From: Dolichospermum sp. DET69 | GTDB lineage: Bacteria; Cyanobacteriota; Cyanobacteriia; Cyanobacteriales; Nostocaceae | NCBI GenBank assembly: GCA_017355425.1 | Contig: CP070233.1 | Span: forward strand, 1,094,501-1,158,500 | Reading direction: 5' to 3' | DNA: 64,000 bases | In this document: positions 3,232 through 42,208 of the stretch, piece after piece | How the letters are laid out: each line of letters opens with the position of its first letter | How positions within the stretch are numbered: the first letter of the stretch is position 1 | The notes under the pieces: model-generated | The model's database searches: none | What the model was told of the DNA's origin: nothing | The model's input: the letters and a program-made list of their open reading frames with translations, nothing else | Position numbers and translations under genes: made by a program

Positions 3232-4338
3232 TTGGTGGTTGAGGAGAGAACAATAGTGCAAGATAGCATATCAGTGTCAGAACCAAATCTATATTCACAG
3301 CGCAGCCAGCCGCACCTTATCCGTATCGGCGTGATTGGTGTTGGTAATATGGGACAACATCATACCCGCATCCTGAGTTCCATGAAAGATGTGGAACTAG
3401 TCGGCGTTTCCGATATTAACGTCGAACGTGGTTTAGAAACTGCCAGCAAATACAAAGTCCGGTTTTTTGAAGACTACTGCGACTTACTACCCCATGTAGA
3501 TGCAATTTGTGTTGCAGTACCTACACGGCTACACTATGCAGTGGGTATCAACTGTTTGTTAGCAGGAATCCATGTTTTAATTGAAAAACCGATAGCGGCT
3601 AGTATTTCTGAAGCAGAATCTTTAGTTAATGCCGCGGCAGAATCCCAGTGTATTTTGCAAGTTGGTCACATTGAGCGATTCAATCCCGCTTTTAGGGAAC
3701 TTACCCAAGTTCTCAAAACCGAGGAAGTCTTGGCTTTAGAATCTCACCGCATGAGTCCTTATTCAGCGCGGGCGAATGATGTTTCCGTAGTGCTGGATTT
3801 AATGATCCATGACATTGATTTGCTGCTAGAATTAGCTGCCTCACCAGTGGTAAAGTTGACTGCTAGTGGGACTCGTTCTTTAGACTCAGGTTATTTAGAT
3901 TATGTAACTGCGACCCTGGGCTTTGCCAATGGTGTTGTTGCCACACTGACAGCCAGCAAAGTTACTCACCGGAAAATTCGTCGCTTAGTTGCTCATTGTA
4001 AAAATTCATTTACAGAAGCAGATTTTCTCACTAATGAGATTTTTGTACATCGCCAAACCCCTGTTAATCCGCTCATTGACCATCAAAAAGTCTTATATAG
4101 ACAAGATGGTTTAATCGAAAAGGTTTATACAACTAATGTTCAACCTCTCAGTGCAGAGTTAGAGCATTTTGTCAACTGCGTCCGTGGTGGCAATCAACCT
4201 TCTGTAGGTGGTGAACAAGCTCTCAAAGCCCTGCGCTTGGCAAGTTTAATTGAGCAAATGGCTTTAGAAGAAAGAGTTTGGAATCCCTTGGAATGGTCTT
4301 CCGAATCCAGAGTCCAATCTTTGACATCAACCATTTAG
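3232..4338 (+). CDS. Gfo/Idh/MocA family NAD(P)-dependent oxidoreductase
   Basis: A 368-residue protein with an N-terminal Rossmann nucleotide-binding motif (GVIGVGNMGQHH, about residues 33-44). A sugar-dehydrogenase-like EKP motif (LIEKPIAA) and a C-terminal alpha/beta substrate domain follow, as in glucose-fructose, inositol and UDP-sugar dehydrogenases. The substrate cannot be read from sequence. The start is either TTG 3232 or GTG 3235; no ATG lies near the conserved region and no strong Shine-Dalgarno is seen. The gene stands alone between queC (opposite strand) and the parM-like gene, with a long leader containing an inverted repeat. Confidence 0.85.
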   Translation: MVVEERTIVQDSISVSEPNLYSQRSQPHLIRIGVIGVGNMGQHHTRILSSMKDVELVGVSDINVERGLETASKYKVRFFEDYCDLLPHVDAICVAVPTRLHYAVGINCLLAGIHVLIEKPIAASISEAESLVNAAAESQCILQVGHIERFNPAFRELTQVLKTEEVLALESHRMSPYSARANDVSVVLDLMIHDIDLLLELAASPVVKLTASGTRSLDSGYLDYVTATLGFANGVVATLTASKVTHRKIRRLVAHCKNSFTEADFLTNEIFVHRQTPVNPLIDHQKVLYRQDGLIEKVYTTNVQPLSAELEHFVNCVRGGNQPSVGGEQALKALRLASLIEQMALEERVWNPLEWSSESRVQSLTSTI

Positions 4339-4349
4339 CAAAAACTGAC

Positions 4350-4379
4350 AGTGAGGGAAATTAATGGTTTTTCCCCACT
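4350..4379 (+). terminator. Hairpin after the oxidoreductase gene
   Basis: The sequence AGTGAGGGAAA, a short spacer, then TTTTTCCCCACT forms an imperfect stem 12 bases after the stop codon. There is no long T tract, so termination is only probable. Confidence 0.4.
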
Positions 4380-4572
4380 ATTAAAAATAGTAATTGGTGA
4401 TTAGTGATTTTTCTACTATTCTGATTCCTGAACTCCTAACCTTAACCAAAAAACTTTTTCAGTCAGTCTTATGAATTTTGACGTATTTCTAGTTACACTT
4501 AACCCAACCTAAAATTTTTGTAGCTCACCTTTTTATAAGATGAGCATAATAACTTGTTACAGAGGAGCTTTC

Positions 4573-5727
4573 ATGACAGATCAACCCCCCGTCGCTAATC
4601 CAATGAATGCCGCTGCCATTCCCATGAACCGAAACCCAGCAGCTTCCGCAGCCACACCCATGAATTCTGGAAATTCTGGAAAACCAAGCAATATTGGCGG
4701 TAAAGTTATTCTCAGTGTTGATCTAGGCAGAACATCTACAAAGACTTGTGTAAGCCGTGAACCCAATAATGTGGCTTTCATCCCTTCTAATGTTAAGCAA
4801 ACATCAATTGAGCAAATTCGCGGTGGTGTCTTTGAAGCTAAGGCTACTGACCCACTAATGGATTTGTGGCTAGAGTATCAAGGTAGTGGCTATGCTGTAG
4901 GGCAACTAGCCGCCGATTTTGGGGCAAATCTTGGCGTTGGTCAATCTAAAGTAGAAGATGCCCTGGTAAAAGTATTATCATCTGCCGGGTATTTTAAGCT
5001 TAAAGATGAAATTTTTGTGGTTCTAGGTCTGCCTTTCTTATCTTTGGAACAATTTGAAAAAGAAAAGGCACAGTTAACTAGCTTGGTAACTGGACCCCAT
5101 GTATTGAATTTTCGAGGTGAATCCATAACTTTGAACATTGCCAAAGTCTGGATAATGCCCGAAGGATATGGTAGTTTACTGTGGTCAGAAACTCAACCTA
5201 ACAAAGCAGTAACAGCTCCCGATTTTACGAAAATATCTGTAGGGATTGTTGATATCGGTCATCAAACCATTGATATGATCATGGTGGATAATTTCCGCTT
5301 TGCCAGAGCCGCTTCTAAGAGTGAAGACTTTGGGATGAGCAAATTTTATGAAATGGTAGCTAAGGAAATAGATGGCGCTGATAGTCAATCTTTAGCATTA
5401 ATTTCTGCGGTTAATAAACCCAAAGGCGAACGCTTTTACCGTCCTAAAGGCGCTAGTAAGCCGACTAATTTAGATGATTTTCTCCCTAATCTGACAGAGC
5501 AGTTTTCACGGGACATTTGCTCTCGCGTGTTAGCGTGGTTGCCAGAGCGGGTAACTGATGTGATTATTACAGGTGGTGGTGGAGAGTTTTTCTGGGAAGA
5601 TGTTCAACGTCTCCTCAAAGAAGCTAAAATCAACGCTTACTTAGCTGTACCTTCTCGACAGGCTAATGCTTTGGGGCAGTATATTTACGGAGAAGCGCAA
5701 TTATCTGCTGCTGTTCGTGCTAGGTAA
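4573..5727 (+). CDS. ParM/StbA-like actin-family filament protein
   Basis: A 384-residue actin-like ATPase. The phosphate-1 loop is LSVDLGRTSTKT (about residues 47-58), the phosphate-2 strand is VGIVDIGHQTIDM near residue 224, and the adenosine motif is VIITGGGGEFF near residue 335. This order is that of ParM, StbA and Alp7A, which form dynamic filaments for DNA segregation. A flexible N-terminal tail of about 40 residues repeats the tripeptide PMN, which is unusual. I chose ATG 4573 because AGAGGAG lies 5 bases upstream; an upstream ATG at 4540 has no ribosome site. The next gene follows 8 bases downstream and looks like the DNA-binding adaptor. Motifs suggest an intact nucleotide site; cellular role is inferred. 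Confidence 0.82.
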   Translation: MTDQPPVANPMNAAAIPMNRNPAASAATPMNSGNSGKPSNIGGKVILSVDLGRTSTKTCVSREPNNVAFIPSNVKQTSIEQIRGGVFEAKATDPLMDLWLEYQGSGYAVGQLAADFGANLGVGQSKVEDALVKVLSSAGYFKLKDEIFVVLGLPFLSLEQFEKEKAQLTSLVTGPHVLNFRGESITLNIAKVWIMPEGYGSLLWSETQPNKAVTAPDFTKISVGIVDIGHQTIDMIMVDNFRFARAASKSEDFGMSKFYEMVAKEIDGADSQSLALISAVNKPKGERFYRPKGASKPTNLDDFLPNLTEQFSRDICSRVLAWLPERVTDVIITGGGGEFFWEDVQRLLKEAKINAYLAVPSRQANALGQYIYGEAQLSAAVRAR

Positions 5728-5735
5728 TAAAACTG

Positions 5736-6203
5736 ATGTTCCAATGGTCAAAGAAGGTAGTCAAATCCGTTACGTTCAATCCAGACATTGCTGATGAAAG
5801 CTTGTTAGCGCAGGTGGAAAACTATTTGGAGGAACAGCCAGATAAAACTTTCAGTGATCTGTGTAAAGAGTCTCTCTGGAAACTCTTGTGTGTTCCAGAA
5901 CCCGTACAACTAGCTTCTAAGACAGCAAATATAACTATGGTTGAACAAAGAATCGGTGAGATACAAAATCAAATGGTTGGGTTTGAGGAACGTCTTTTTG
6001 CTAGGGAGTCTCATCGTTTGGAAGCGATAGAAAGTCAAATGTTGCAACTTACTCAACAAGTTGCAAAGTTAGCAATCATTCTCAATCAGCAACCACTTAC
6101 CTATATTCCTCCTGATAGCGTAGTGCAAGCTATACCAGAACCAGAACCTCAAGAAATAGACCCTATAATTGATCGTATTGGTCAGTTTCTTGATGATTTC
6201 TAA
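5736..6203 (+). CDS. Probable ParR-like partner of the actin homologue
   Basis: A 155-residue acidic protein. Its first 50 residues read strand-helix-helix (VKSVTFNP, then DESLLAQVENYLEEQ, then TFSDLCKESLWKLLC), the pattern of a ribbon-helix-helix DNA-binding fold as in ParR. Residues 65-110 form a predicted coiled coil with Gln-rich heptads, and the end is Pro/Glu-rich with a hydrophobic-acidic tip (IGQFLDDF). ParR proteins contact ParM through a C-terminal segment, so the tip could be the filament-binding peptide. The gene is 8 bases after the parM-like gene and is followed by a terminator, so the two form an operon. Assignment rests on context and predicted fold, not on a recognised sequence family. 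Confidence 0.55.
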   Translation: MFQWSKKVVKSVTFNPDIADESLLAQVENYLEEQPDKTFSDLCKESLWKLLCVPEPVQLASKTANITMVEQRIGEIQNQMVGFEERLFARESHRLEAIESQMLQLTQQVAKLAIILNQQPLTYIPPDSVVQAIPEPEPQEIDPIIDRIGQFLDDF

Positions 6204-28970: not shown

Positions 28971-29750
28971 CTAATTTTGATTGAATATATTCAGATATTT
29001 AACCATATTTTTAATTTGTTCTATGGTATATGGAGGATTTTTTTGATGTATCATTGTATGGCAATTAGGACATACTGGACGTAAATCTTCAATGGGATTA
29101 ACTTCATATTCTTGATTAATTTCAGATAAAGGAATTAAATGATGAACATGAATAAAACTTTTACCTATTTCTCCAAAAGCTTTTTCAAAATTAAATCCAC
29201 AGACATAGCAATTTGTTCCATAATGTTGAATACACTGTTTTCGAGCTTGATTATTTCTTTCATAACGATTTACAGTTATTATTTGTTTTGAACCTTCATA
29301 AAGATTAATAATTTCATCTTTATCTGCTAATTCTTCAGCTAATTTAAAAGATACTTCATTGAAATCATAATTTGATTTTTTATTAACCCAACCTAATTCT
29401 TCTAAAGCCATTGCAACTTCTTCATACATTTGCCACAAAACCTTATTTGGATTATTTTTATCAATATAGCCACCACTGGATAACATAGTCCAATACTTAT
29501 AACTAGGTTCTATTCCAATTGCATCTGATAATAAATGTCCTAAACGACCATAAATAATATTAACACGTGCAAAACCTCCCTTGATTTCTGCTAATTCTGC
29601 AAGTTGTGTTGCTGTAACTATTTTATTAGGAGAATAATATTGTTTTTGAAGTAAGCATCGTTGCTGATCATTTATAGGTGGTTTAATATCTTTAAATCCC
29701 TGAACATATTGTTCTTTTGATGGTAAATTATCAAGTTTATGTATTTTCAT
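28971..29750 (-). CDS. HNH endonuclease, second of the pair flanking RloA/RloB
   Basis: A 259-residue protein. The C-terminal ~100 residues are an HNH nuclease with zinc-binding Cys pairs: CYVCGFNFEKAFGEIG, FIHVHHLIPLSEIN (catalytic His), DLRPVCPNCHTMIH. The N-terminal ~150 residues are unlike the other HNH gene at 32428 and match no family I recognise; they include TATQLAELAEIKGGFARVNI and may sense DNA or a signal. It is the last gene of a minus-strand cluster with RloB and RloA, which suggests a restriction-like defence role. The C-terminal 100 residues are close to identical with those of the other HNH gene. Confidence 0.8.
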   Translation of the reverse strand: MKIHKLDNLPSKEQYVQGFKDIKPPINDQQRCLLQKQYYSPNKIVTATQLAELAEIKGGFARVNIIYGRLGHLLSDAIGIEPSYKYWTMLSSGGYIDKNNPNKVLWQMYEEVAMALEELGWVNKKSNYDFNEVSFKLAEELADKDEIINLYEGSKQIITVNRYERNNQARKQCIQHYGTNCYVCGFNFEKAFGEIGKSFIHVHHLIPLSEINQEYEVNPIEDLRPVCPNCHTMIHQKNPPYTIEQIKNMVKYLNIFNQN

Positions 29751-29885
29751 GCTTTTCTAAAAGCTCACTTTTTTTAAAAATTTTAGTCTTCACTTGCATC
29801 TCTATTTAAACTAATAGCAATTTGTATATTAAAAAGCATTAAACAAATATAACATACTTCTAATTGACTATATCACAAAAAGCGA

Positions 29886-30590
29886 TTATTCATTCTTCTT
29901 TTCTGATGTAAAAATGACTTGATTAAGTTTTTCCACTAATTTATAAACAGTTGTTGATGGATTGATATTGTGTCTTTTAATTCTTTCCTCTATGGTTAAT
30001 TTATCATCATCTACTTCCCTCTCATTACCATAGCTTAACCAAAGTTTTCTAGCAAATTTAATAGCATTAGATTGTTTATCTTTTAATTTTTCATACATAT
30101 CTTCAGAATTTTTCTCGTATTTTTCACCCAATCTTGTTTTTGCACTTAGCATATTTTCATAATTACTTCGATGAGTTTCACTTTGATAATATTCATAATG
30201 CAATAAATACCATAATTCAAAAGCATCATTAGAAACCGCTAAATTTAATTGATTTTCTATTGCTAATCTAATCGCTTCATTAAAATTTTGCTGATTATTA
30301 TTTTCACGCTTTAAGTCTCTATCAAATACACACCAAACTTCATCATCTTCATAATTACCTTGTTCTTTTAACTTTTTAGCTATTGTAACAACTGTTATTC
30401 CTACCGCACCCAATCCTTTAATAGTAATATATAGAGTTTTATTAGCGTGTGCTATTTTTTGAAACCCTTCAAAATAATTTGGTTCAGTTTCTTCCCCTTC
30501 ACAAACAATCAAAAATGTTTTTCCTTTTGATCTACCACTTACTTTCCTTTGAGAATACATTGAATTATTTCTTGAATTTTGTCTTGCCAT
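29886..30590 (-). CDS. RloB-like protein (AbiL-ii type)
   Basis: A 234-residue RloB-family protein. The N-terminal core KTFLIVCEGEETEPNYFEGF is diagnostic; it carries TOPRIM-like acidic residues, with DDEVWCVFDRD near residue 90 and NDAFELWYLLHYEYY near 115. RloB partners an ABC-type ATPase (RloA) in AbiL-like and PARIS-related defence pairs, where the second protein is a nuclease-like effector released when the ATPase senses phage. It starts 2 bases after the RloA stop codon, so it is co-translated with it. Confidence 0.85.
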   Translation of the reverse strand: MARQNSRNNSMYSQRKVSGRSKGKTFLIVCEGEETEPNYFEGFQKIAHANKTLYITIKGLGAVGITVVTIAKKLKEQGNYEDDEVWCVFDRDLKRENNNQQNFNEAIRLAIENQLNLAVSNDAFELWYLLHYEYYQSETHRSNYENMLSAKTRLGEKYEKNSEDMYEKLKDKQSNAIKFARKLWLSYGNEREVDDDKLTIEERIKRHNINPSTTVYKLVEKLNQVIFTSEKKNE

Positions 30591-30592
30591 TT

Positions 30593-31903
30593 TTAATCAT
30601 TAGATAATAGATTTTTAAAATTACCAATAAAGGGAATTGCTCCATATCTTCCGCGAATATAATCTGCTTCCAAAGGATCATCTTCTGCAATATCATCATA
30701 TTCAGCTAAAGAATATAAATCGGTTGCTCCTTGTTGATTTTTTTCGGTAAACCAGATTTGATCTCTTCTTAATAATCTACCACCAAATAAATTAGGATTG
30801 AGTAAATTAGTATCATGAGTCATAAAAATAAGCTGTGCAGATTTTGAATTATATTTTTTTGAATTAAACAACTCAATAATTTTATGAGTAATGATAGGAT
30901 GTAATTTTGCATCCAATTCATCTATAATTAAAATTTGACTAAACCTCAAAGCGTGTAAAAGTAAGGCTGAAAAATAAAATAGCTTTTTCGTTCCTTCAGA
31001 TTCATTTTCTTCCAAGTCAAATTTCTCAACTCCAATTGCTTCACCATTTTCATTATATTTTTCGTGAGACGTTTGGATACTAGATAATTCACCCGAAGAT
31101 GAGCGGAGAATTATACTTTTTAATTCATCTGGTATGGATAATGGCAAATTTTCTAAAGATATTTTTTCTTTGGTAATATTGATATCTTGAATTGATAAAT
31201 CTAAATCTTTAATTAATTTAATACTATCTTTTTTGATTAAAGGAGACTCAAGCAATTTTAAAGTAACTGTTTTATAAAAGTTATCATGTATTCCTGAACC
31301 AGATATAACTTGACAATTAGCAAACCATTTTATTATTTCAGCAGAAATTTTACCATTAAACTGTGCTACAACAGAAAGAAAAAGAGAATTATGTTTAGTC
31401 TTATCTTCTAATTTTAATCCTTCTTGAAAAGATTTTTGATTGATTTTAAATCTGTTGCCATTTCTTTGAAATAATTGATACTCTTGAACTTTACCCTTGA
31501 AAAATAGCCATTCCTGAACAACTTTATCTTTAGATACTTTAAAACCATATTTATATATTTTTTTGTTTAGATACAAAGTTGCTTGAAAAAAAGATGGTTT
31601 ATCTTCTGTTTCTGTACTAAGTCTGAAAGGTTCAACTGCAATATCATCTGTGAATTGCATTTCTTTAGAAGAATTAATCACGAAGTCTTTCATAAAACCA
31701 AATGCTTTAGCAAGATTGCTTTTTCCACTAGCATTAGCACCATAAATAGCCGTTGTTTTCAGTAATTTCAATTCTTCATTAACTGAAAATACATTATTTT
31801 CATCTAATTCTGCATTTTGACTCTGAATATCAGAAGCAACCATACTAAAAGTAACTGTATCTTTAAAAGACAGAAAATTCCCCACTTGAAATTCAATTAG
31901 CAT
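30593..31903 (-). CDS. RloA-like AAA/ABC-type ATPase (AbiL-i type)
   Basis: A 436-residue ATPase of the AAA-15/21 (OLD/RloA) group. It has Walker A at residues 55-63 (GANASGKSN), a signature-like SSGEL, Walker B as ILIIDELDAKLHP near residue 325 and an H-loop-like FMTHDTNLL. All catalytic motifs are present, so it should be active. With RloB it forms an AbiL-like pair known for abortive infection against phage. It is preceded by a small antitoxin gene and an HNH nuclease gene on the same strand. Confidence 0.87.
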   Translation of the reverse strand: MLIEFQVGNFLSFKDTVTFSMVASDIQSQNAELDENNVFSVNEELKLLKTTAIYGANASGKSNLAKAFGFMKDFVINSSKEMQFTDDIAVEPFRLSTETEDKPSFFQATLYLNKKIYKYGFKVSKDKVVQEWLFFKGKVQEYQLFQRNGNRFKINQKSFQEGLKLEDKTKHNSLFLSVVAQFNGKISAEIIKWFANCQVISGSGIHDNFYKTVTLKLLESPLIKKDSIKLIKDLDLSIQDINITKEKISLENLPLSIPDELKSIILRSSSGELSSIQTSHEKYNENGEAIGVEKFDLEENESEGTKKLFYFSALLLHALRFSQILIIDELDAKLHPIITHKIIELFNSKKYNSKSAQLIFMTHDTNLLNPNLFGGRLLRRDQIWFTEKNQQGATDLYSLAEYDDIAEDDPLEADYIRGRYGAIPFIGNFKNLLSND

Positions 31904-32007
31904 GAATTTAATTTACTCCTTTGTTTATATTTTTATCTACTAGTAAGTTAGAATTAGAACATATTTTGGCGAAAGTAACATATTACCACCGTTCATTTGC
32001 TTCTTCT

Positions 32008-32064
32008 CTAGTCAGTGGTTGAAAATTCTTTTAAAAATTTCTTTGTATATTCAACTTTCCACAT
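32008..32064 (-). pseudogene. Truncated RelE-type toxin
   Basis: ATG 32064 overlaps the antitoxin stop by 14 bases and starts MWKVEYTKKFLKEFSTTD, the typical RelE beginning, but stops after 18 codons. Fewer than 20 of about 85 codons remain. In another frame the next bases read QPLTREEANERW, a fragment of unknown origin. Confidence 0.7.
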
Positions 32065-32263
32065 TTCTATTTTTCAGCATTTGTAAATATTGTATAGCTT
32101 CATTTTTAGATAAAACTTGATCAGTTTCTACTTCTTCCATTAGTTTTGCTAATCCATAATTTTCTAATATTTCTTCTATTTGTTCAAATTCAGTAATAGG
32201 AATTTGTACAGCAATTGGTTTTTGATTTTGATCTAAAACATAATTTTTATTGATTTGTAGCAT
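32051..32263 (-). CDS. Orphan antitoxin of the broken RelE
   Basis: A 70-residue acidic protein starting MLQINKNYVLDQNQKPIAVQ, a pattern common in cyanobacterial Phd/RelB-type antitoxins that pair with RelE toxins. The partner gene is truncated (32008-32064), so this may be silent or act in trans. It lies about 150 bases upstream of RloA on the same strand. The start at 32263 avoids 23 residues read from the repeat upstream. Confidence 0.7.
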   Translation of the reverse strand: MLQINKNYVLDQNQKPIAVQIPITEFEQIEEILENYGLAKLMEEVETDQVLSKNEAIQYLQMLKNRNVES

Positions 32264-32310
32264 TGAATTAACTCCTAAATCATTAGGAATATTATAGCAT
32301 ATTGTCTGAT

Positions 32311-32366
32311 AGCGTAGCGTGGCGCAAGCCATATCAGGATATCCAGGATTTGAGGATTTACAGGAT
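32311..32366. repeat. Dispersed repeat carrying a nested 22-24-base element
   Basis: The unit ATATCAGGATATCCAGGATTTG (32331 on) is the dispersed family; AGCGTAGCGTGGCGCAAGCCAT (32311-32332) is inserted at the same site as in the last unit of the 10-kb array. Confidence 0.78.
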
Positions 32367-32427
32367 GGAGTTATTTTTGAGGATGAGACATTAAGTAATC
32401 AATCTCTCTTCTTATTCACTATATCAG

Positions 32428-33189
32428 CTATTGAAGCATATTTTTAATTTCTTCTATAGTATATGGTGGATTTTTTCGATGTATCATGGCATGACAATTA
32501 GGACATACTGGACGTAAATCTTGAATTGGATCAATTTCATATTCTTGATTAATTTCAGATAAAGGAATTAAATGATGAACATGAATAAATTCTTGACCAA
32601 TTTCACCATAAATTTTTTCAAAGTTCACCCCACATACATAACAATTTATATCATAGTATTTAATACATATTTTTCGACCTTGATTATTTCTTTCATAAGC
32701 ATTAACTGTTACTTGTCTAACAGATCCTTCTGTTAAAATTTGTGTGTCGTTTACTTCATCAGGAAATAGTGTGATATTATCTATTTCAGTGGTTAATTGA
32801 TCAGAATAAAAAAAGTCTTTAAAATCTTGTTTTGGATTACTTAAAATTTTACATACTAACTCATATAATTCATTTTCAGAATATGTTTTAAATGCGTTAT
32901 AAATTTCTTTAACAACACCAGTAAATGGCATTTTATCATAGCCTTTGCGACGATTATTATGATAAGGATCAAATTTATCTCTACACTGTTTAAATGTAGT
33001 ATCTTTGATTTCAAATATAGAGGATATTCTCATATGTGTTTCCCCTTTATTTCCAAAACATAAATTCCTAAATTTGGTATAAGCATATTCATCAAATCTG
33101 GAAATATAATAACCTACTATATACGAATAGGGACAATTACAGTTACTAAATGAATCTATAAGAGTATTCCAACTATCAGGTTTCTTCAT
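32428..33189 (-). CDS. HNH endonuclease, first of the pair flanking RloA/RloB
   Basis: A 253-residue protein. The C-terminal ~100 residues are an HNH nuclease almost identical to the gene at 28971: CYVCGVNFEKIYGEIG, FIHVHHLIPLSEIN, DLRPVCPNCHAMIH. The N-terminal ~150 residues (CPYSYIVGYYISRFDEYAYT, FGNKGETHMRISSIFEI) are entirely different from that gene and unfamiliar, suggesting a distinct targeting domain. I chose ATG 33189 over an upstream TTG. It is first of a five-gene minus-strand run with the antitoxin, RloA, RloB and the second HNH gene. Confidence 0.8.
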   Translation of the reverse strand: MKKPDSWNTLIDSFSNCNCPYSYIVGYYISRFDEYAYTKFRNLCFGNKGETHMRISSIFEIKDTTFKQCRDKFDPYHNNRRKGYDKMPFTGVVKEIYNAFKTYSENELYELVCKILSNPKQDFKDFFYSDQLTTEIDNITLFPDEVNDTQILTEGSVRQVTVNAYERNNQGRKICIKYYDINCYVCGVNFEKIYGEIGQEFIHVHHLIPLSEINQEYEIDPIQDLRPVCPNCHAMIHRKNPPYTIEEIKNMLQ

Positions 33190-33191
33190 AA

Positions 33192-33290
33192 TCAAAAATT
33201 TGTGATTTCTATTTTGTGATAATCTAAATTATAAATATCATCTTCTGGATCATTCCACTCCGCAAGTCCTGTTTCTGCTAATTCTATAAA
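33192..33290 (-). pseudogene. C-terminal relic of an antitoxin-like gene
   Basis: Minus-strand frame reading FIELAETGLAEWNDPEDDIY, then NLDYHKIEITNF and stop at 33192. The EWNDPEDDIY pattern is common at the end of small cyanobacterial antitoxin-like proteins. No start remains. It directly follows the 71-residue gene at 33306. Confidence 0.5.
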
Positions 33291-34397: not shown

Positions 34398-37028
34398 ATG
34401 CTACAAGAATATCGTCAACAGGTTGCCGAACGCGCCCAACTGGGTATTCCCCCTTTACCATTAGACGCACAACAAACATCAGTATTGTGTGAATTACTGA
34501 AAAATCCCCCTACAGGCGAAGAAGAGTTATTATTAAATTTATTACGCGATCGCATTCCCCCTGGAGTAGATCAAGCTGCTTATGTAAAAGCTGGATTTCT
34601 GACTGGAATTGCTAAAGGAGAAATTACCAGTCCTTTAGTTTCTCCAATTGACGCAGTAGAATTACTGGGAACGATGATTGGTGGTTACAATGTTCAATCC
34701 TTAATTGATCTACTGCAAGTTTCCAGCAGTTCTGTATCAGAATCTTCAGAAACACCGTTGGTAATGGGAGGAGAAGGAAGAGAACAAATCGCCGCTTATG
34801 CAGCCAACGCCCTCAGCAAAATTATGTTGGTGTATGATGCGTTTCATGATGTTTTGGAATTGTCGAAAACCAACCCCTACGCCAAACAAGTGGTAAACTC
34901 ATGGGCAGAAGCAGAATGGTTTACTTTGCGTCCCACATTACCAGAATTTATCACCGTTACCGTTTTCAAAGTTCCCGGAGAAACTAACACCGACGACTTA
35001 TCACCCGCAACCCACGCTACAACCAGACCGGATATTCCTTTACACGCTTTGGCGATGTTGGAAACTCGTCAACCCGGAAGTTTAGACACCATTGCAGAGT
35101 TAAAGAAAAAAGGTTATCCGATTGCTTACGTCGGTGATGTCGTTGGTACAGGTTCTTCTCGTAAGTCTGCAATCAATTCTGTATTATGGCATTTGGGCAA
35201 TGATATTCCCTTTGTGCCAAACAAACGGGCTGGAGGTTATGTATTAGGAAGTGCGATCGCTCCTATCTTTTTTAACACAGCCGAAGATGCCGGTGCATTA
35301 CCCATTCAATGCGATGTCAGCAAAATGGCAACCGGCGACGTAATCACTATTTATCCCTACAAAGGAAGTATTCTCAATGCCGCAGGAGAAGTAGTTTCCA
35401 CCTTCAGCCTCAAACCTGACACTATTTTAGACGAAGTTCGCGCCGGTGGACGGATTCCTTTATTAATTGGGCGTACCCTCACCGATAAAACCCGTCAAGC
35501 ATTAGGTTTAGCACCCAGCAAATTATTTATTCGTCCTCAAGCCCCAGCGGACACCGGCAAAGGCTACACATTGGCACAGAAAATGGTCGGGAAAGCCAGT
35601 GGTTTACCGGGAGTACGTCCAGGGACATCTTGCGAACCAATCATGACTACAGTGGGTTCTCAGGATACTACAGGCCCAATGACAAGGGATGAATTAAAAG
35701 AACTCGCTTGTCTCGGTTTCAGTGCAGACTTGGTAATGCAAAGTTTCTGTCACACAGCCGCATATCCTAAACCTGTGGACATTAAAACCCACCAAGAACT
35801 ACCCGACTTCATTTCCTCTCGTGGTGGTGTGGCGTTGCGTCCTGGAGATGGTATCATTCACTCCTGGTTAAACCGGATGTTATTACCCGACACCGTGGGA
35901 ACCGGTGGAGATTCCCATACCCGTTTCCCGTTAGGAATATCCTTCCCTGCTGGTTCTGGGTTAGTGGCGTTTGCGGGGGCTTTGGGTGTCATGCCTTTGG
36001 ATATGCCCGAATCAGTTTTGGTCAGATTTACAGGGGAATTACAACCAGGAATAACTCTCCGAGATATTGTTAACGCCATACCTTATGTTGCCATGCAAAA
36101 AGGTTTGTTAACAGCAGATAAGCAGAACAAGAAAAATGTTTTCTCTGGCAAGATTTTGGAAATTGAAGGTTTACCAAATTTGAAAGTTGAACAAGCTTTT
36201 GAATTAACCGACGCTTCCGCAGAACGTTCTTGTGCTGGTTGTACAATTAAGTTGAGTGAAGAAACAATTGCGGAATATTTGCGTTCCAATATTGCTTTGT
36301 TGAAAAATATGGTAGCACGGGGTTATAGTGATGCCAGAACCATGATGCGTCGAGTAGCCAAAATGCAAGAATGGTTGGACAATCCTGTATTATTATCGGC
36401 TGACGCTGATGCGGAATATGCAGAAATAATTGAAATTGATTTAAGCCAAATCAAAGAACCAATTGTGGCTGCTCCCAATGACCCAGATAATGTTAAGTTA
36501 TTATCGGAAGTTGCCAATGATCCTGTACAAGAAGTATTTGTGGGTTCTTGTATGACAAATATCGGACATTATCGAGCAACTGCGAAGGTTTTGGAAGGTG
36601 CAGGGGAAGTGAAAGCGCGGTTGTGGATAGCGCCGCCAACTCGCATGGATGAACACCAATTAAAGGCAGAAGGTGTTTATAATGTTTTCGTAGCTGCAAA
36701 TGCCAGAACTGAGATTCCCGGATGCAGTTTATGTATGGGAAATCAGGCGCGAGTTGATGATAATACAACGGTGTTTTCTACCTCGACTCGTAATTTCAAT
36801 AATCGCATGGGTAAAGGCGCTCAAGTTTATTTAGGTTCGGCGGAATTAGCAGCAGTTTGTGCGTTGTTGGGACGTATTCCTAATGTGCAGGAATATATGG
36901 ATATTGTCGCGGAGAGAATTCATCCTTTTGCTGATGATTTGTATCGCTATTTGAACTTTGATCAAATTGTTGGTTTTGAGGATGAAGGTAGGGTGATTTC
37001 TCAGGAGGAACAAGCTTTGTTGGTATAA
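34398..37028 (+). CDS. acnB: Aconitate hydratase B
   Basis: An 876-residue bifunctional aconitase B / 2-methylisocitrate dehydratase, the only aconitase type of most cyanobacteria, acting in the TCA branch that makes 2-oxoglutarate for nitrogen assimilation. The cluster Cys residues are in [13 protein letters not shown] and [12 protein letters not shown]. The N-terminal HEAT-like domain ([16 protein letters not shown]) and [11 protein letters not shown] block confirm AcnB. Length matches the family. AGGAG precedes ATG 34398 by about 14 bases. It is monocistronic; a repeat-rich gap follows. Confidence 0.97.
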
Positions 37029-37039
37029 TGTAGTTTAGG

Positions 37040-37178
37040 GTGGGTCTTGATGGACTCACCTGAATTTTAGGAAGTTAGAGACTTCCAAATAAAAAAATAC
37101 CCCAAAATTTCTTGTGGTGCAGGCATAAAAAGCCTGCTAATAATATTAGGACGGGCAAGATGCCCATCCCACAAGATT
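37040..37178. repeat. Cluster of intergenic hairpins after acnB
   Basis: Stems include GTGGGTC/GACTCAC, GGAAGT/ACTTCC, GCAGGC/GCCTGC and GGGCAAGATGCCC. Partly matching units occur at 39963-40060. The remaining sequence to 37348 has no gene. The first hairpins could end acnB transcription. Confidence 0.6.
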
Positions 37179-37357
37179 GGATAGCGAAGTGCTGCTGCAA
37201 GCAGTTCATCTTTTTTATGGAGTTCTCTTAATACAATTATTAAGATTCTTTACACTCCACATTAATTTATTCCTGTGGTAAAATACAATTAATTATTCTA
37301 TGTCACTTAATCAACAAATCTCTGATTGTAAACATTAACGAAAATAAATTGTCAACT

Positions 37358-38455
37358 ATGGTAAATCAATTAGAAATTACAGATCAACGCAAAGAAAATG
37401 CTGAAGCGGAAATTCGTGAAAATACAAAACGTGTTGACTACAACACCTTAGAATACCCTATAGAAGTAATTGTTCAAAAATATTTAGATGGAATAGATGA
37501 AGATGAAAATGAATTATTTATTCCAGACTATCAACGAGAAATGGCTTGGGATGAAGATAGACAATCAAAATTTATTGAATCTGTAATATTAGGTTTACCA
37601 ATACCTTATATTTTTGTTGCTGATATATCAGGTTCTGAAGATTTAGCACGATTAGAAATTATAGATGGAACACAACGTATTCGCACTTTAATTAGATTTA
37701 TTAACAATAAACTTAAATTAAAAAATCTTGAGAAATTAAAAACTCTAAATGGGTTTATTTTTGAAAATTTACCCTTACCACGTCAAAGACGTTTTAAGAG
37801 AACTAGTATTAGGATGATTGTATTAACAAAAGAAGCAGATGAAGAAATTAGAAGGGATCTTTTTCAAAGAATTAATAGTGGTAGTCTTGAATTAAATGAA
37901 ATGGAAAAACGGAGAGGAGGTCAACCAGGAAAGTGTCTTGATTTAATTGAGACACTATCGAAAGAACAACGATTTTTAAATTTATGCTCTTTTAGTAAAA
38001 CTGAAATTGACAAAAGAGATCCACAAGAATTTGTCTTACGGTTTTTTGCATTTTTAAATAATTATCAAAATTATGGTTTGTCTGATAACAAAGTTCATCA
38101 ATTTTTGGATGAATATTTAAAGCAAGAAAATAAATCTGATTTACTCAAGATAGATGTTATGAGAAATGACTTCTATTCAATGTTAGAATTTATAGAAAGA
38201 TATTGTCCTAATTCTTTACATATTTATCGAAAAATTAAGAATTTGTATGAACCTACCACTAGAATTAAGTTTGAATCTATTACGGTAGGAGTTACTCTAG
38301 CATTAAGACAAAATCAAACATTAATACCAAAATCTACTTCTTTTTTAGATTCTGAGGAATTTAAAAAACTAACGAAATCTGATGCTAGTAGTTCTCAAAA
38401 TAAAGTTATTCGTCGTATTGAGTATGTCCGTGATCAGCTTTTAGGTAATTCATGA
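37358..38455 (+). CDS. DUF262 (GmrSD-N-like, ParB-fold) protein of a two-gene defence-like operon
   Basis: A 365-residue DUF262 protein with the family signature IPDYQREMAWDEDRQSKFIE near residues 54-73, then LGLPIPYIFVAD, the catalytic-type IIDGTQRIRTL (DGQQR-like) and LFQRINSGSLELNEMEKR. DUF262 proteins have an NTP-dependent ParB/Srx-like fold and occur in GmrSD and many uncharacterised defence systems. Here it lacks the DUF1524 HNH domain of GmrD. Its stop overlaps the start of the next gene, a HEPN-type nuclease candidate, so the two likely act as sensor and effector. I chose ATG 37358. Confidence 0.85.
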   Translation: MVNQLEITDQRKENAEAEIRENTKRVDYNTLEYPIEVIVQKYLDGIDEDENELFIPDYQREMAWDEDRQSKFIESVILGLPIPYIFVADISGSEDLARLEIIDGTQRIRTLIRFINNKLKLKNLEKLKTLNGFIFENLPLPRQRRFKRTSIRMIVLTKEADEEIRRDLFQRINSGSLELNEMEKRRGGQPGKCLDLIETLSKEQRFLNLCSFSKTEIDKRDPQEFVLRFFAFLNNYQNYGLSDNKVHQFLDEYLKQENKSDLLKIDVMRNDFYSMLEFIERYCPNSLHIYRKIKNLYEPTTRIKFESITVGVTLALRQNQTLIPKSTSFLDSEEFKKLTKSDASSSQNKVIRRIEYVRDQLLGNS

Positions 38456-39162
38456 GAAGTACATTATTTGAAGATTTTGATAACCGCGCTCAAGAAGTAA
38501 GACGATATTTTATATTCTTGAAAAATTTAGAGAAAGGTTCAATTCAATTAAGTCTGGGAAATGCAAACAATCCCAAAATTAAACCTATTAATGAGGATCT
38601 AGAAAAAACTCTTAAAGCAACAGGATATTTGCTACTTTACAACCTAGTAGAATCTACAATGCGTAATGCAATTGTAACAATTTTTGATGAATTAAAAACT
38701 CAAAGAGTTTCTTTCGATGATGTAAGAGACGAAATTAAAAAGATTGTTATTGATAATCTAAAAGATAAAGATAATAAATCTACTAAAGATATTTTGGTTA
38801 CAGTTCAAAATATTTCTGTTGATATCATATCAGCTACTTTTAATAGAGATAGATTATTTTCAGGAAATATTGATGGAAAAAGAATCAAAGATACAGCCAA
38901 AATGTATGGATTTTCATATACTACTAATGCTAGAAAAACTGGAAATGGTAGTAATTTAGAAAAGATTAAAAATCATAGAAAAGACTTAGCACATGGTTTT
39001 AAGTCTTTTGAAGAAATTGGTAAAGATGCGACTGCTGATGAGTTATTTAAAATTCAAAAAAGAGTTATTTGTTATTTAAGGGAAATATTAGAAAATATAG
39101 AAATGTATATATCAAATCAAGAATATTTACAGAGAAATGAGCAAAATAGTGAAAATAATTAG
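38452..39162 (+). CDS. HEPN-like nuclease (MAE_28990/MAE_18760 type)
   Basis: A 236-residue protein of the HEPN-like family named after Microcystis genes MAE_28990 and MAE_18760. The N-terminal segment FEDFDNRAQEVRRYFIFLKN and TGYLLLYNLVESTMRNAI are typical, and the RNase motif R-x4-H is present as RKDLAHG with Arg 176 and His 181. HEPN proteins with this motif cleave RNA in toxin-antitoxin and abortive infection systems. ATG 38452 overlaps the DUF262 stop by 4 bases, so translation is coupled. Function is predicted from family, not shown here. Confidence 0.83.
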   Translation: MRSTLFEDFDNRAQEVRRYFIFLKNLEKGSIQLSLGNANNPKIKPINEDLEKTLKATGYLLLYNLVESTMRNAIVTIFDELKTQRVSFDDVRDEIKKIVIDNLKDKDNKSTKDILVTVQNISVDIISATFNRDRLFSGNIDGKRIKDTAKMYGFSYTTNARKTGNGSNLEKIKNHRKDLAHGFKSFEEIGKDATADELFKIQKRVICYLREILENIEMYISNQEYLQRNEQNSENN

Positions 39163-39193: not shown

Positions 39194-39607
39194 ATGTTAA
39201 AAACTTTTAAAGCTATTTTGAAAAATAATTCTATTCAATGGGTTGATGAGACTCCCAAAATAGAATTAGACAATTCCATAAAAGTGCATATTACTGTCTA
39301 TTTTGAGGAATTTTTTAATGCTTCTCAAATCTTACCAGTTTCTCAAGTGGTAATTGAGCAAGGAGTAAGACTAAAACAAATTAAAAAAATATCTCTAGGA
39401 GATGCTATTATTGCCGGAACAGCGTTAGTTTATGATCTAACTGTTGTCACTAGAAATATTGATGATTTTCGTTTTTACTTAGCACTTGGTCAACTTGTTT
39501 ATAAAGCTAATTTTGATGAAACAATTCAAGTTGTTGTTGATGAAAACCAACTTAAATTAATCATTATAGATACAGATAAAGAGGTTATTACCAAATGGAT
39601 AAGTTAG
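39194..39607 (+). pseudogene. Chimeric ORF: antitoxin start + PIN-toxin end + XisH end
   Basis: One 137-codon frame with three origins. Residues 1-38 (MLKTFKAILKNNSIQWVDET) look like the N-terminus of a small antitoxin. Residues about 39-91 (PVSQVVIEQGVRLKQIKKIS, GDAIIAGTALVYDLTVVTRN) are the C-terminal half of a PIN-domain toxin. Residues 92-137 ([20 protein letters not shown]) are the C-terminus of XisH. The first two PIN Asp residues and most of XisH are missing. The frame stays open across both joins. It overlaps the xisI gene by 13 bases, as xisH normally does. It may be expressed but is unlikely to work as toxin or as XisH. Confidence 0.7.
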
Positions 39608-39936
39608 AAAATTACCGATTTTTAATCAAAAAAATCTTAACAGAATATCATCAACTTTTTTCCTCTGCATCTCCTGATAATATAGAAATGCTCTTAGCTT
39701 TTGATGAGCAAAGAGATCAATATTTATGGTTTCAAGTTGGTTGGACAACTGAGGAAAGAATTAAGGGAATTTCTGTCCATATTCGCATTAAAAATGAGAA
39801 GATTTACATTGAGGAAGATTGGACTGAGGAAGGAATTGCAACTGAGTTATTAAGGGAAGGTGTACCAAAAGAGGATATTGTTTTGGCTTTTCATGATCCA
39901 GAAACTCGAAAACTGACGGAGTTTGCTGTGGCTTAA
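39595..39936 (+). CDS. xisI: fdxN-element excision controlling factor XisI
   Basis: A 113-residue XisI protein: [20 protein letters not shown], then [40 protein letters not shown] and an end [20 protein letters not shown] are the family pattern. XisI acts with XisH and XisF in excision of the fdxN DNA element in heterocysts, and many Nostocales carry extra xisHI copies of unclear role. The intact xisI sits behind a chimeric xisH remnant, so the pair is probably no longer functional. Confidence 0.9.
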
Positions 39937-39962
39937 TAAGAACAGGCTTCTTTGATATTATG

Positions 39963-40118
39963 TAGGTTGAGGTGGGTCTGGATGAACTCACCTGAAATAT
40001 ATAGTAAAATCTTGTGGAACAGGCATCTTGCCTGTTATCTTTTTATAAGAATTAAATTTAATCATTTCACAGGACTGATTTTTACACTTTCACAGGCTTC
40101 CAGCCTGTGCTACTTAAA
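39963..40118. repeat. Intergenic hairpin units like those after acnB
   Basis: GGTGGGTCTGGATGAACTCACC and ACAGGCATCTTGCCTGT hairpins, and a CACAGGCTTCCAGCCTGTG hairpin. No gene is visible between 39937 and 40183. Confidence 0.6.
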
Positions 40119-42160: not shown

Positions 42161-42208
42161 TATACAGGAAGTTTGAAGAGCGATCGCATTCCTCCAACAT
42201 CCCAAACC

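Follow-up and report, generated by a model that had tools for sequence, protein, structure and literature searches.

A DUF262-HEPN gene pair in Dolichospermum sp. DET69 as a likely anti-phage system, and a methyltransferase gene beside many of its relatives

The window analyzed here is a stretch of 64,000 nucleotides from the cyanobacterium Dolichospermum sp. DET69 (assembly GCA_017355425.1, contig CP070233.1, positions 1,094,501 to 1,158,500 of the forward strand), and the coordinates below count from its first letter. It contains two overlapping genes, encoding a DUF262 protein and a HEPN protein, that are likely to constitute an anti-phage system of the same kind as PD-T4-2. Judging from sequence comparisons, we assign a probability of about 0.64 to the reading that these genes are a defence pair, in which the DUF262 protein would be a sensor of DNA modification and a switch dependent on nucleoside triphosphate (NTP), and the HEPN protein the RNase effector. 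What is new here is that a C5-cytosine methyltransferase (MTase) is present as a third gene in most related tree rows outside the clade to which the window pair belongs (the window clade), and that none was found within that clade, where the pair is still under selection. The genes and motifs of the pair are as follows:

37358–38455, plus strand: DUF262 (GmrSD_N, PF03235) protein of 365 amino acids (aa), predicted NTP-binding DNA-modification sensor, with ATG at 37358
37520–37537, plus strand: IPDYQR motif; P56, Q59 and R60 are invariant in 51 aligned relatives
37664–37678, plus strand: DGTQR motif, residues 103–107; D, G, Q and R are invariant in the 51 aligned relatives
37862–37876, plus strand: FxxxN motif, F169 to N173; both residues are invariant in the 51 aligned relatives
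38452–38455, plus strand: ATGA overlap of the DUF262 stop and the HEPN start, from the reading of the open reading frames (ORFs)
38452–39162, plus strand: HEPN protein of 236 aa, MAE_28990 family (PF18737), predicted RNase effector
38977–38994, plus strand: R176-K-D-L-A-H181, predicted HEPN catalytic motif (R-x4-H), which has the PF18737 active-site form R-x4-6-H

The DUF262 protein matched Pfam GmrSD_N (PF03235) with 98.1 bits (E 9.5e-28, cut-off 33.2); an in-frame TTG is present at 37349, ahead of the ATG start. The designation of FxxxN as a third DUF262 motif is taken from PMC12137116. The HEPN protein matched PF18737 (HEPN_MAE_28990) over residues 1–225 with 181.8 bits (E 2.6e-53, cut-off 26.8) and is also above the cut-off of PF18735, HEPN_RiboL-PSP (36.8 bits vs. 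28.4). In the HEPN alignment of 51 relatives H181 is invariant and R176 is present in at least 90%, and the narrow R-x4-H pattern fits 70 of the 72 HEPN ORFs examined. Searches with Pfam at E 1 found no DUF1524/HNH domain in either the DUF262 or the HEPN protein. These results bear out the description given in an earlier note on this DNA, namely that a DUF262 gene with intact IPDYQR and DGTQR motifs and no HNH domain overlaps by ATGA a gene for a MAE_28990/MAE_18760-like HEPN protein with R176 and H181.

Confident AlphaFold2 models were obtained for both proteins. That of the DUF262 protein, with a mean predicted local distance difference test score (pLDDT) of 87.1 and a predicted template modeling score (pTM) of 0.72, combines alpha and beta elements in its N-terminal part and is mostly helical in its C-terminal part; one of its helices starts near residue 302. 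The HEPN model (mean pLDDT 83.2, pTM 0.80) is mainly helical, with R176 close to the end of helix 160–180 and H181 directly after this helix. A sequence search for solved structures related to DUF262 gave three distinct chains, each bearing the name "DUF262 domain-containing protein," and none was found for HEPN at E 1.

The DUF262 and HEPN genes are one unit, with a linkage far above chance, as determined from 291 genomes of the window's phylum and 14 control genomes. PF18737 matches were present in 54 of the 291 genomes at E 0.001 (over the cut-off in 47) and in none of the controls, and DUF262 was present in 141 of the 291. Eighty-one HEPN rows were over the cut-off, 72 of which were examined, the nine left out being fragments or second halves of split genes. 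All 72 HEPN genes follow a DUF262 gene or its remains. In 66 there is a same-strand upstream DUF262 ORF bearing both motifs, and its stop lies between 4 bp inside and 319 bp before the HEPN match start in 64 of these; in the remaining six the DUF262 has degenerate motifs (L094 and L096), is truncated (L056, L057, and L100) or is represented by a C-terminal piece where the contig ends (L086). A frame-checked ATGA overlap was found in 22 of the 66 pairs and is, consequently, a common feature rather than a universal one. Rare co-occurrence of the two genes, which the earlier note had named as an outcome that would speak against its proposal, was not seen. Within a second set, drawn from plasmids, phages, genome contigs and viral contigs, 90 of 92 loci were paired, the two unpaired ones being L182, whose contig starts just before the HEPN gene, and L185, in which the DUF262 ORF has only 170 aa. 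HEPN homologs are found on phages, viral contigs and plasmids, with the pair present in all six plasmid and phage regions opened and in all six viral contigs; examples of this mobile context are the P2-like phage P24B2, a Moraxella phage and plasmids.

Selection on the pair in the window clade was estimated from the ratio of nonsynonymous to synonymous substitution rates (dN/dS) in 12 pairs of loci, hand-chosen among 13 loci. In 11 of these the ratio is 0.13–0.32 for DUF262 and 0.08–0.32 for HEPN, which indicates purifying selection and argues that the pair is not decaying in this clade; the twelfth (the window vs. L090) is too close to judge. The DUF262 ORF is cut to 190–191 aa in ten loci (L138, L146, L148, L149, L152, L154, L155, L156, L159, and L160) that keep the HEPN R-x4-H motif, and DGxQR is changed in seven of the ten. 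Where measured among nine of the loci with a cut DUF262 plus L100, the HEPN dN/dS is 0.13–0.37. The HEPN ORF of L138 is itself split.

Among the PADLOC defence models, the one that best matches the window DUF262 is NsnA (196 bits, E 2.8e-58), which we take to be the name of a Menshen gene, and there is also a match to PD-T4-2_A (103.9 bits, E 2.2e-30, residues 55–356). The DUF262 proteins of all 51 aligned relatives match both models. A search of both proteins against defence models had been proposed in the earlier note, and the HEPN protein gave no match in it. Taken together, the pairing as one unit, the homologs on phages and plasmids, the NsnA and PD-T4-2_A matches, and an AbiLi-AbiLii pair about 5.5 kb upstream of DUF262-HEPN, beyond the gene acnB, make an anti-phage role likely. 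The proposal that this is a candidate anti-phage system has accordingly gained in weight, and its second half, the tentative statement that no named system has exactly this pair, has to be abandoned: PD-T4-2, which is tabulated under both DUF262 and HEPN PF18735 (PMC10952713), is a DUF262 plus HEPN system, and five cyanobacterial loci with its second gene show the same order of DUF262 then HEPN.

PD-T4-2, from E. coli ECOR65, protects against T4 both in its native strain and in K-12, and T4 forms plaques on the native strain again when the system is deleted (Vassallo et al., 2022, PMC9519451). Matches to PD-T4-2_B were found in seven of the 291 genomes, and the five strong ones all stand behind DUF262, with ORFs that overlap or abut (the DUF262 of one, L317, is interrupted by a run of N). 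Two of these five were compared with Pfam PF18735 and both match it, one above the cut-off. As in the window, PD-T4-2 consists of two adjacent genes, a DUF262 gene (of about 370 aa) and then a HEPN gene. The window pair differs in that its HEPN protein has 236 aa rather than about 168, belongs to family PF18737 and is not matched by PD-T4-2_B, and in that its DUF262 is 30% identical to a cyanobacterial PD-T4-2 copy over 208 aligned positions. Furthermore, PD-T4-2_B had no match anywhere in the DET69 genome at E 0.001. The identity of the window pair with PD-T4-2 itself was rejected because the model for the second gene is unmatched. The same layout, along with a window HEPN above the PF18735 cut-off, points to the same kind of system, of which the window pair is a non-member by the PADLOC models; at the sequence level, it is a divergent relative of PD-T4-2 of the DUF262 plus HEPN kind. 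At one locus, L315 (reverse strand), the PD-T4-2_B-like HEPN continues into RidA-like sequence (endoRNase L-PSP-like, by eye) as one ORF of 308 aa.

Other systems with DUF262 proteins are less similar to the window pair. Menshen combines DUF262 with a predicted OLD nuclease (PMC10952713), and while no PADLOC model matches the window DUF262 better than NsnA, the window pair has no adjoining NsnB (an OLD-like ATPase), none of the 38 NsnB matches in the DET69 genome being next to it; the assignment of the pair to Menshen was rejected for this reason. The modification-dependent systems GmrSD and BrxU (DUF262 plus DUF1524) share the QR, DGxQR, and FxxxN motifs with the window DUF262, whereas the window pair has no DUF1524 nuclease domain and has a HEPN protein as partner. 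It is the DUF1524 domain that is the nuclease in GmrSD, BrxU, and SspE (PMC10952713), and in all three DUF262 exerts NTP-dependent control over the effector (PMC10952713, PMC12137116, PMC12707154). SspE models matched the window DUF262 weakly (best 21 bits). GrwAB was also rejected, as both its proteins are DUF262 proteins, one with DUF1524, and the excerpt of its source text does not contain the word "HEPN."

The MAE_28990 entry of Anantharaman et al. (2013, PMC3710099) reads "In operon with a ParB nuclease and DNA methylase genes," which is the same HEPN family and partner class as in the window, and the DNA methylase link was recovered here: a C5-cytosine MTase (PF00145; E 3.1e-56 for the L128 copy) lies within 1.2 kb in 41 of 90 paired loci. 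The window clade differs from that entry by having no adjacent MTase, and the table entry, in the excerpt, gives no count, geometry, phylogeny or test. In our set, 36 of the 41 MTase genes are convergent and downstream (21 of the 36 overlapping the HEPN ORF), four are upstream and one is downstream on the same strand. The record annotation confirms the MTase at the Klebsiella plasmid, phage P24B2 and Phaeobacter loci. In E. coli, seven of 5426 genomes match the P24B2 module (three along 80% or more of its length), and the annotation shows the three genes in each of the seven. Distances between MTases correlate with those between the DUF262-HEPN pairs (r 0.92; 561 pairs of 34 rows); for 24 rows inside the cyanobacterial MTase clade r is 0.66, a value that none of 2000 permutations reached. 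By these distances, the three genes travel together and are co-inherited.

The distribution of the MTase was mapped on a midpoint-rooted tree of 81 rows, which was restricted to loci with a DUF262 ORF of at least 340 aa and a HEPN ORF of at least 200 aa and from which six duplicates were removed; loci numbered below 103 are only those that passed among 16 named ones. The window clade comprises 31 rows (support 99), 28 without an MTase and three with too little flank. Outside this clade, 40 of 50 rows have the MTase, nine do not and one is unknown. The sister clade of 28 rows (support 87) has it in 26, the two without being L126 and L162, and two more cyanobacterial rows with the MTase (L143 and L167) lie just outside the sister clade. 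Rows from plasmids, phages, viral contigs, Bacteroidota, and Verrucomicrobiota have it in 11 of 14 cases; of the others, L105 is without, L191 has no flank, and L194 has a weak match of 150 bits, so that it counts as without MTase on this tree (threshold 200) and as with MTase in the residue-304 and distance analyses (threshold 100). The deepest rows by the midpoint root (L021, L050, L085, and L087) and L059 have no MTase. The state changes at least five times on the tree, and loss of the MTase in the window clade is the simplest reading for the surrounding part of the midpoint-rooted tree only.

No MTase was found in the 18 kb surrounding the window pair with a model of the family's MTases, nor did tblastn searches at E 1e-3, with two MTases of the family as queries, find an MTase or a remnant of one in the whole window or in the loci without an MTase match; the idea of remnants beside MTase-free pairs was rejected on this result. 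In the DET69 genome 11 rows match the family MTase, the best with 40% identity over 163 aa (E 3e-22). Since these are distant homologs only, a cognate MTase acting in trans was rejected, which leaves room for an unrelated MTase. A different conserved third gene in the window clade was likewise rejected, because acnB (15 of 35 loci) is the sole non-pair protein family in at least ten loci, leaving aside ORFs antisense to the pair or to acnB. Among the matches listed from the open-licence PMC literature, no title or abstract was on methyltransferase loss.

A column scan of the DUF262 alignment drew attention to one residue that varies with the presence of the MTase:

38267–38269, plus strand: codon AAG of K304 in the window DUF262

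The scan covered 141 rows with a DUF262 ORF of at least 330 aa, seven of them with unknown MTase state. All 44 rows that have the MTase next to the pair have Arg at position 304, as does one of the 90 without, so that the residue tracks the MTase in 133 of 134 rows. The sole Arg304 row without an MTase is L162, whose sister L181 has one, while L126, the other MTase-free row of the sister clade, has Trp. Residue 304 was chosen post hoc as the best of all window columns. On the tree for this residue the MTase state changes five times and R304 four times, and the three independent, well-supported pairs (two changing the same way, none the opposite way, one with no difference) cannot reach significance. 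Given this post hoc choice and the small number of independent events, the tracking of the methyltransferase by Arg/Lys304 is suggestive only.

In the mechanism that we propose, the DUF262 protein would bind DNA and read its modification state, and binding or hydrolysis of NTP via the QR, DGTQR, and FxxxN motifs would reshape it. The HEPN protein would then be released and would cut RNA with R176 and H181, so that the infected cell would be arrested or killed before the phage matures. In the three-gene relatives, the C5-cytosine MTase presumably marks self DNA, and the pair would be the restriction arm of a system resembling restriction-modification (R-M). Such an arrangement has a likeness in SspABCD-SspE, where a DNA-modifying arm is coupled to a DUF262 effector arm (PMC10952713, PMC12707154), although the mark there is phosphorothioate, as opposed to the C5-methylcytosine and separate HEPN effector proposed for the three-gene relatives. 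As the window clade has no MTase beside the pair and the pair is kept under selection, DUF262 there probably has another target, in the simplest case a modified base in foreign DNA, such as GmrSD and BrxU recognize. A more specific scenario, which we put forward tentatively and hold to be less likely than not, is that of an R-M system with a gated-RNase arm, where the MTase marks self, DUF262 reads this mark and HEPN cleaves RNA in its absence, from which the window clade would have shed the MTase and re-tuned its DUF262 (e.g., from Arg304 to Lys) to a foreign signal. If this is true, one small family would hold on one tree both states, with and without a DNA-methylating partner of its own, and a shift from self-mark to foreign-mark restriction would be traceable within one protein family. 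Two questions would then be open to test: how a sensor drops the self mark without death of the host, and whether cutting in an R-M system can be done by an RNase.

Several findings weigh against the proposed defence pair and its kinship with PD-T4-2. The window HEPN has no match to a PADLOC model at E 1, PD-T4-2_B is matched by none of the 51 relatives at E 0.1, and when profiles are compared, the resemblance to PD-T4-2_B is weak (23% probability over 44 columns around the RN..AH motif). Two of the 72 HEPN ORFs, L044 and L052 (a short ORF), are outside the R-x4-H pattern. The MTase is not general either, being absent from the E. coli plasmid pair L105 and present in four of the 68 paired loci with enough flank among the 71 paired loci of the 291-genome sample; many of these 68 are more distant DUF262-HEPN branches and others belong to the window clade. 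Lastly, the loci in which HEPN is kept beside a DUF262 cut to 190 aa imply that the two genes may not always be needed together.

The alternative that survives best, and that we still consider unlikely, is a toxin-antitoxin pair, in which HEPN would be the toxin and DUF262 merely its antitoxin, kept by addiction, with defence secondary or absent. Strict pairing, often with gene overlap, is what such a pair would show, and a toxin-antitoxin role has been proposed for the dyad of a MAE_18760 HEPN and a ParA-like ATPase (PMC3710099). However, the predicted enzymatic motifs of DUF262 are kept in all 51 aligned relatives, the MTase in 40 of the 50 tree rows outside the window clade would be needless for a plain toxin-antitoxin pair, and ten loci keep HEPN beside a DUF262 of 190–191 aa.

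It is less probable again, and in our estimate distinctly so, that DUF262 (as a ParB/Srx-like protein) is the DNase of the restriction arm and HEPN a backup suicide RNase, with the cognate MTase of the window pair in trans. The partner of MAE_28990 is called a "ParB nuclease" (PMC3710099), the PADLOC "REase_II" model is also matched by the DUF262 of 50 of the 51 relatives, and the 11 genome rows that match the family MTase could supply the missing arm, yet none of these is a close homolog (best E 3e-22). Moreover, the nuclease of GmrSD, BrxU, and SspE is DUF1524, which is absent from the window pair, and the absence of a local MTase extends over a broad clade (31 tree rows, of which 28 have enough flank).

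Returning to the genomic setting of the likely defence pair, its upstream neighbor is acnB (34398–37028; three aconitase families), which was found in 135 of the 291 phylum genomes at E 1e-50 and is therefore a housekeeping gene. The characterization of the neighbors as accessory genes in the earlier note consequently fails for the upstream side, and what it leaves is the downstream side, with a XisH-like ORF and XisI:

37008–37069, plus strand: direct repeat copy 1, the acnB 3' end (stop at 37028) and adjoining sequence
39194–39607, plus strand: XisH-like ORF, in the repeat-bounded block and outside the defence pair (PF01850, 25.7 bits, residues 39–90; PF08814, 27.5 bits, residues 74–132)
39595–39936, plus strand: XisI, in the repeat-bounded block and outside the defence pair (PF08869, E 4.8e-44)
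39940–40001, plus strand: direct repeat copy 2 of the acnB 3' end, just after XisI (81% over 62 nt)

The copies of the acnB end at 37008 and 39940 define DUF262-HEPN-XisH-XisI as a 2.9-kb block between them. The XisH-like ORF is an apparent chimera, with an antitoxin-like start (by eye), a PIN-domain piece (39–90) and a XisH C-terminus (74–132). In same-genus regions without the pair, homology to the acnB side of the window stops near 37069 and restarts near 42180. The stretches downstream of acnB were compared in the 80 genomes of the window's order that have acnB (four stretches are shorter than 3 kb, at contig ends). Extra copies of the acnB end are present in 10 of the 80, the window's included (L233, L237, L238, L239, L240, L245, L252, L257, L259, and L273), where they flank accessory blocks. 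By our reading of the matches, an extra copy lies no more than about 10 kb away on the same contig in 11 of 16 same-genus genomes, and elsewhere in the 16 only fragments of about 50 nt were matched, in two genomes. The pair comes directly after acnB in five of the 80 regions and in a sixth region is found some 7.4 kb downstream, and acnB is in the flank of 12 of the 80 genome-contig loci bearing HEPN. In another five of the 80 (L250, L256, L258, L266, and L295) a DUF262 protein of 573–604 aa comes first after acnB, and in the four of these on which Pfam was run (L250, L256, L258, and L266) both GmrSD_N and GmrSD_C were found. Hence the acnB 3' end looks like a repeatedly used attachment site or integration hotspot into which DUF262 systems, along with other modules, insert, and its repeats suggest a route to further accessory modules in cyanobacteria. 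That the pair has instead been domesticated for housekeeping, is bound to acnB in this cyanobacterial order and plays no part in defence would be in line with its position after or near acnB in these regions, the acnB flanks and the purifying selection, but is very improbable, as 74 of the 80 acnB-downstream stretches (the four short ones among the 80) have no pair, the slot holds other accessory genes, including DUF262 proteins of fused-GmrSD size in five, and the acnB 3' end repeats mark insertions.

PF03235 matches eight places in the DET69 genome, with several partner types. Beside the window HEPN, the partners are a second HEPN of 358 aa, a PF18735 HEPN of 161 aa (L003), a RelA/SpoT-domain protein (L009) and, at two loci, NsnB-matching ATPases; L004 is a 558-aa protein in which Pfam sees GmrSD_N alone, and L010 is the remaining place. 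These varied partners support DUF262 as a sensor with exchangeable effectors. The suggestion in the earlier note that HEPN may have replaced an HNH domain as effector is too simple, as free-standing DUF262 proteins with separate partners are common, with eight places in this genome alone. The second DUF262-HEPN pair (L080, G000:C1:2900000-2912500, 3838–6117, minus strand) has a HEPN of the same family that, at 358 aa, extends well past the family match. At L009 (G000:C1:405453-408857), DUF262 followed by the RelA/SpoT-domain protein is possibly a DUF262 system with a nucleotide-synthesizing effector.

Promoters showed no excess over shuffled sequence (9 found vs. a mean of 17.1 in shuffles). 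The nearest named relative found for the 6.04-Mb, two-contig DET69 genome is Dolichospermum sp. ST_sed8, whose HEPN is 99% identical. In PHROGs, the pair matches phrog_2598 and phrog_3846, both annotated as of unknown function. The AbiL pair, which counts in favor of the defence reading, lies between two HNH-domain ORFs (region 28971–33195) that are alike and weakly match a type IV restriction model:

28971–29750, minus strand: HNH-domain ORF
29886–30590, minus strand: AbiLii/RloB (PADLOC E 8e-31)
30593–31903, minus strand: AbiLi (PADLOC E 5.4e-95)
32428–33195, minus strand: HNH-domain ORF

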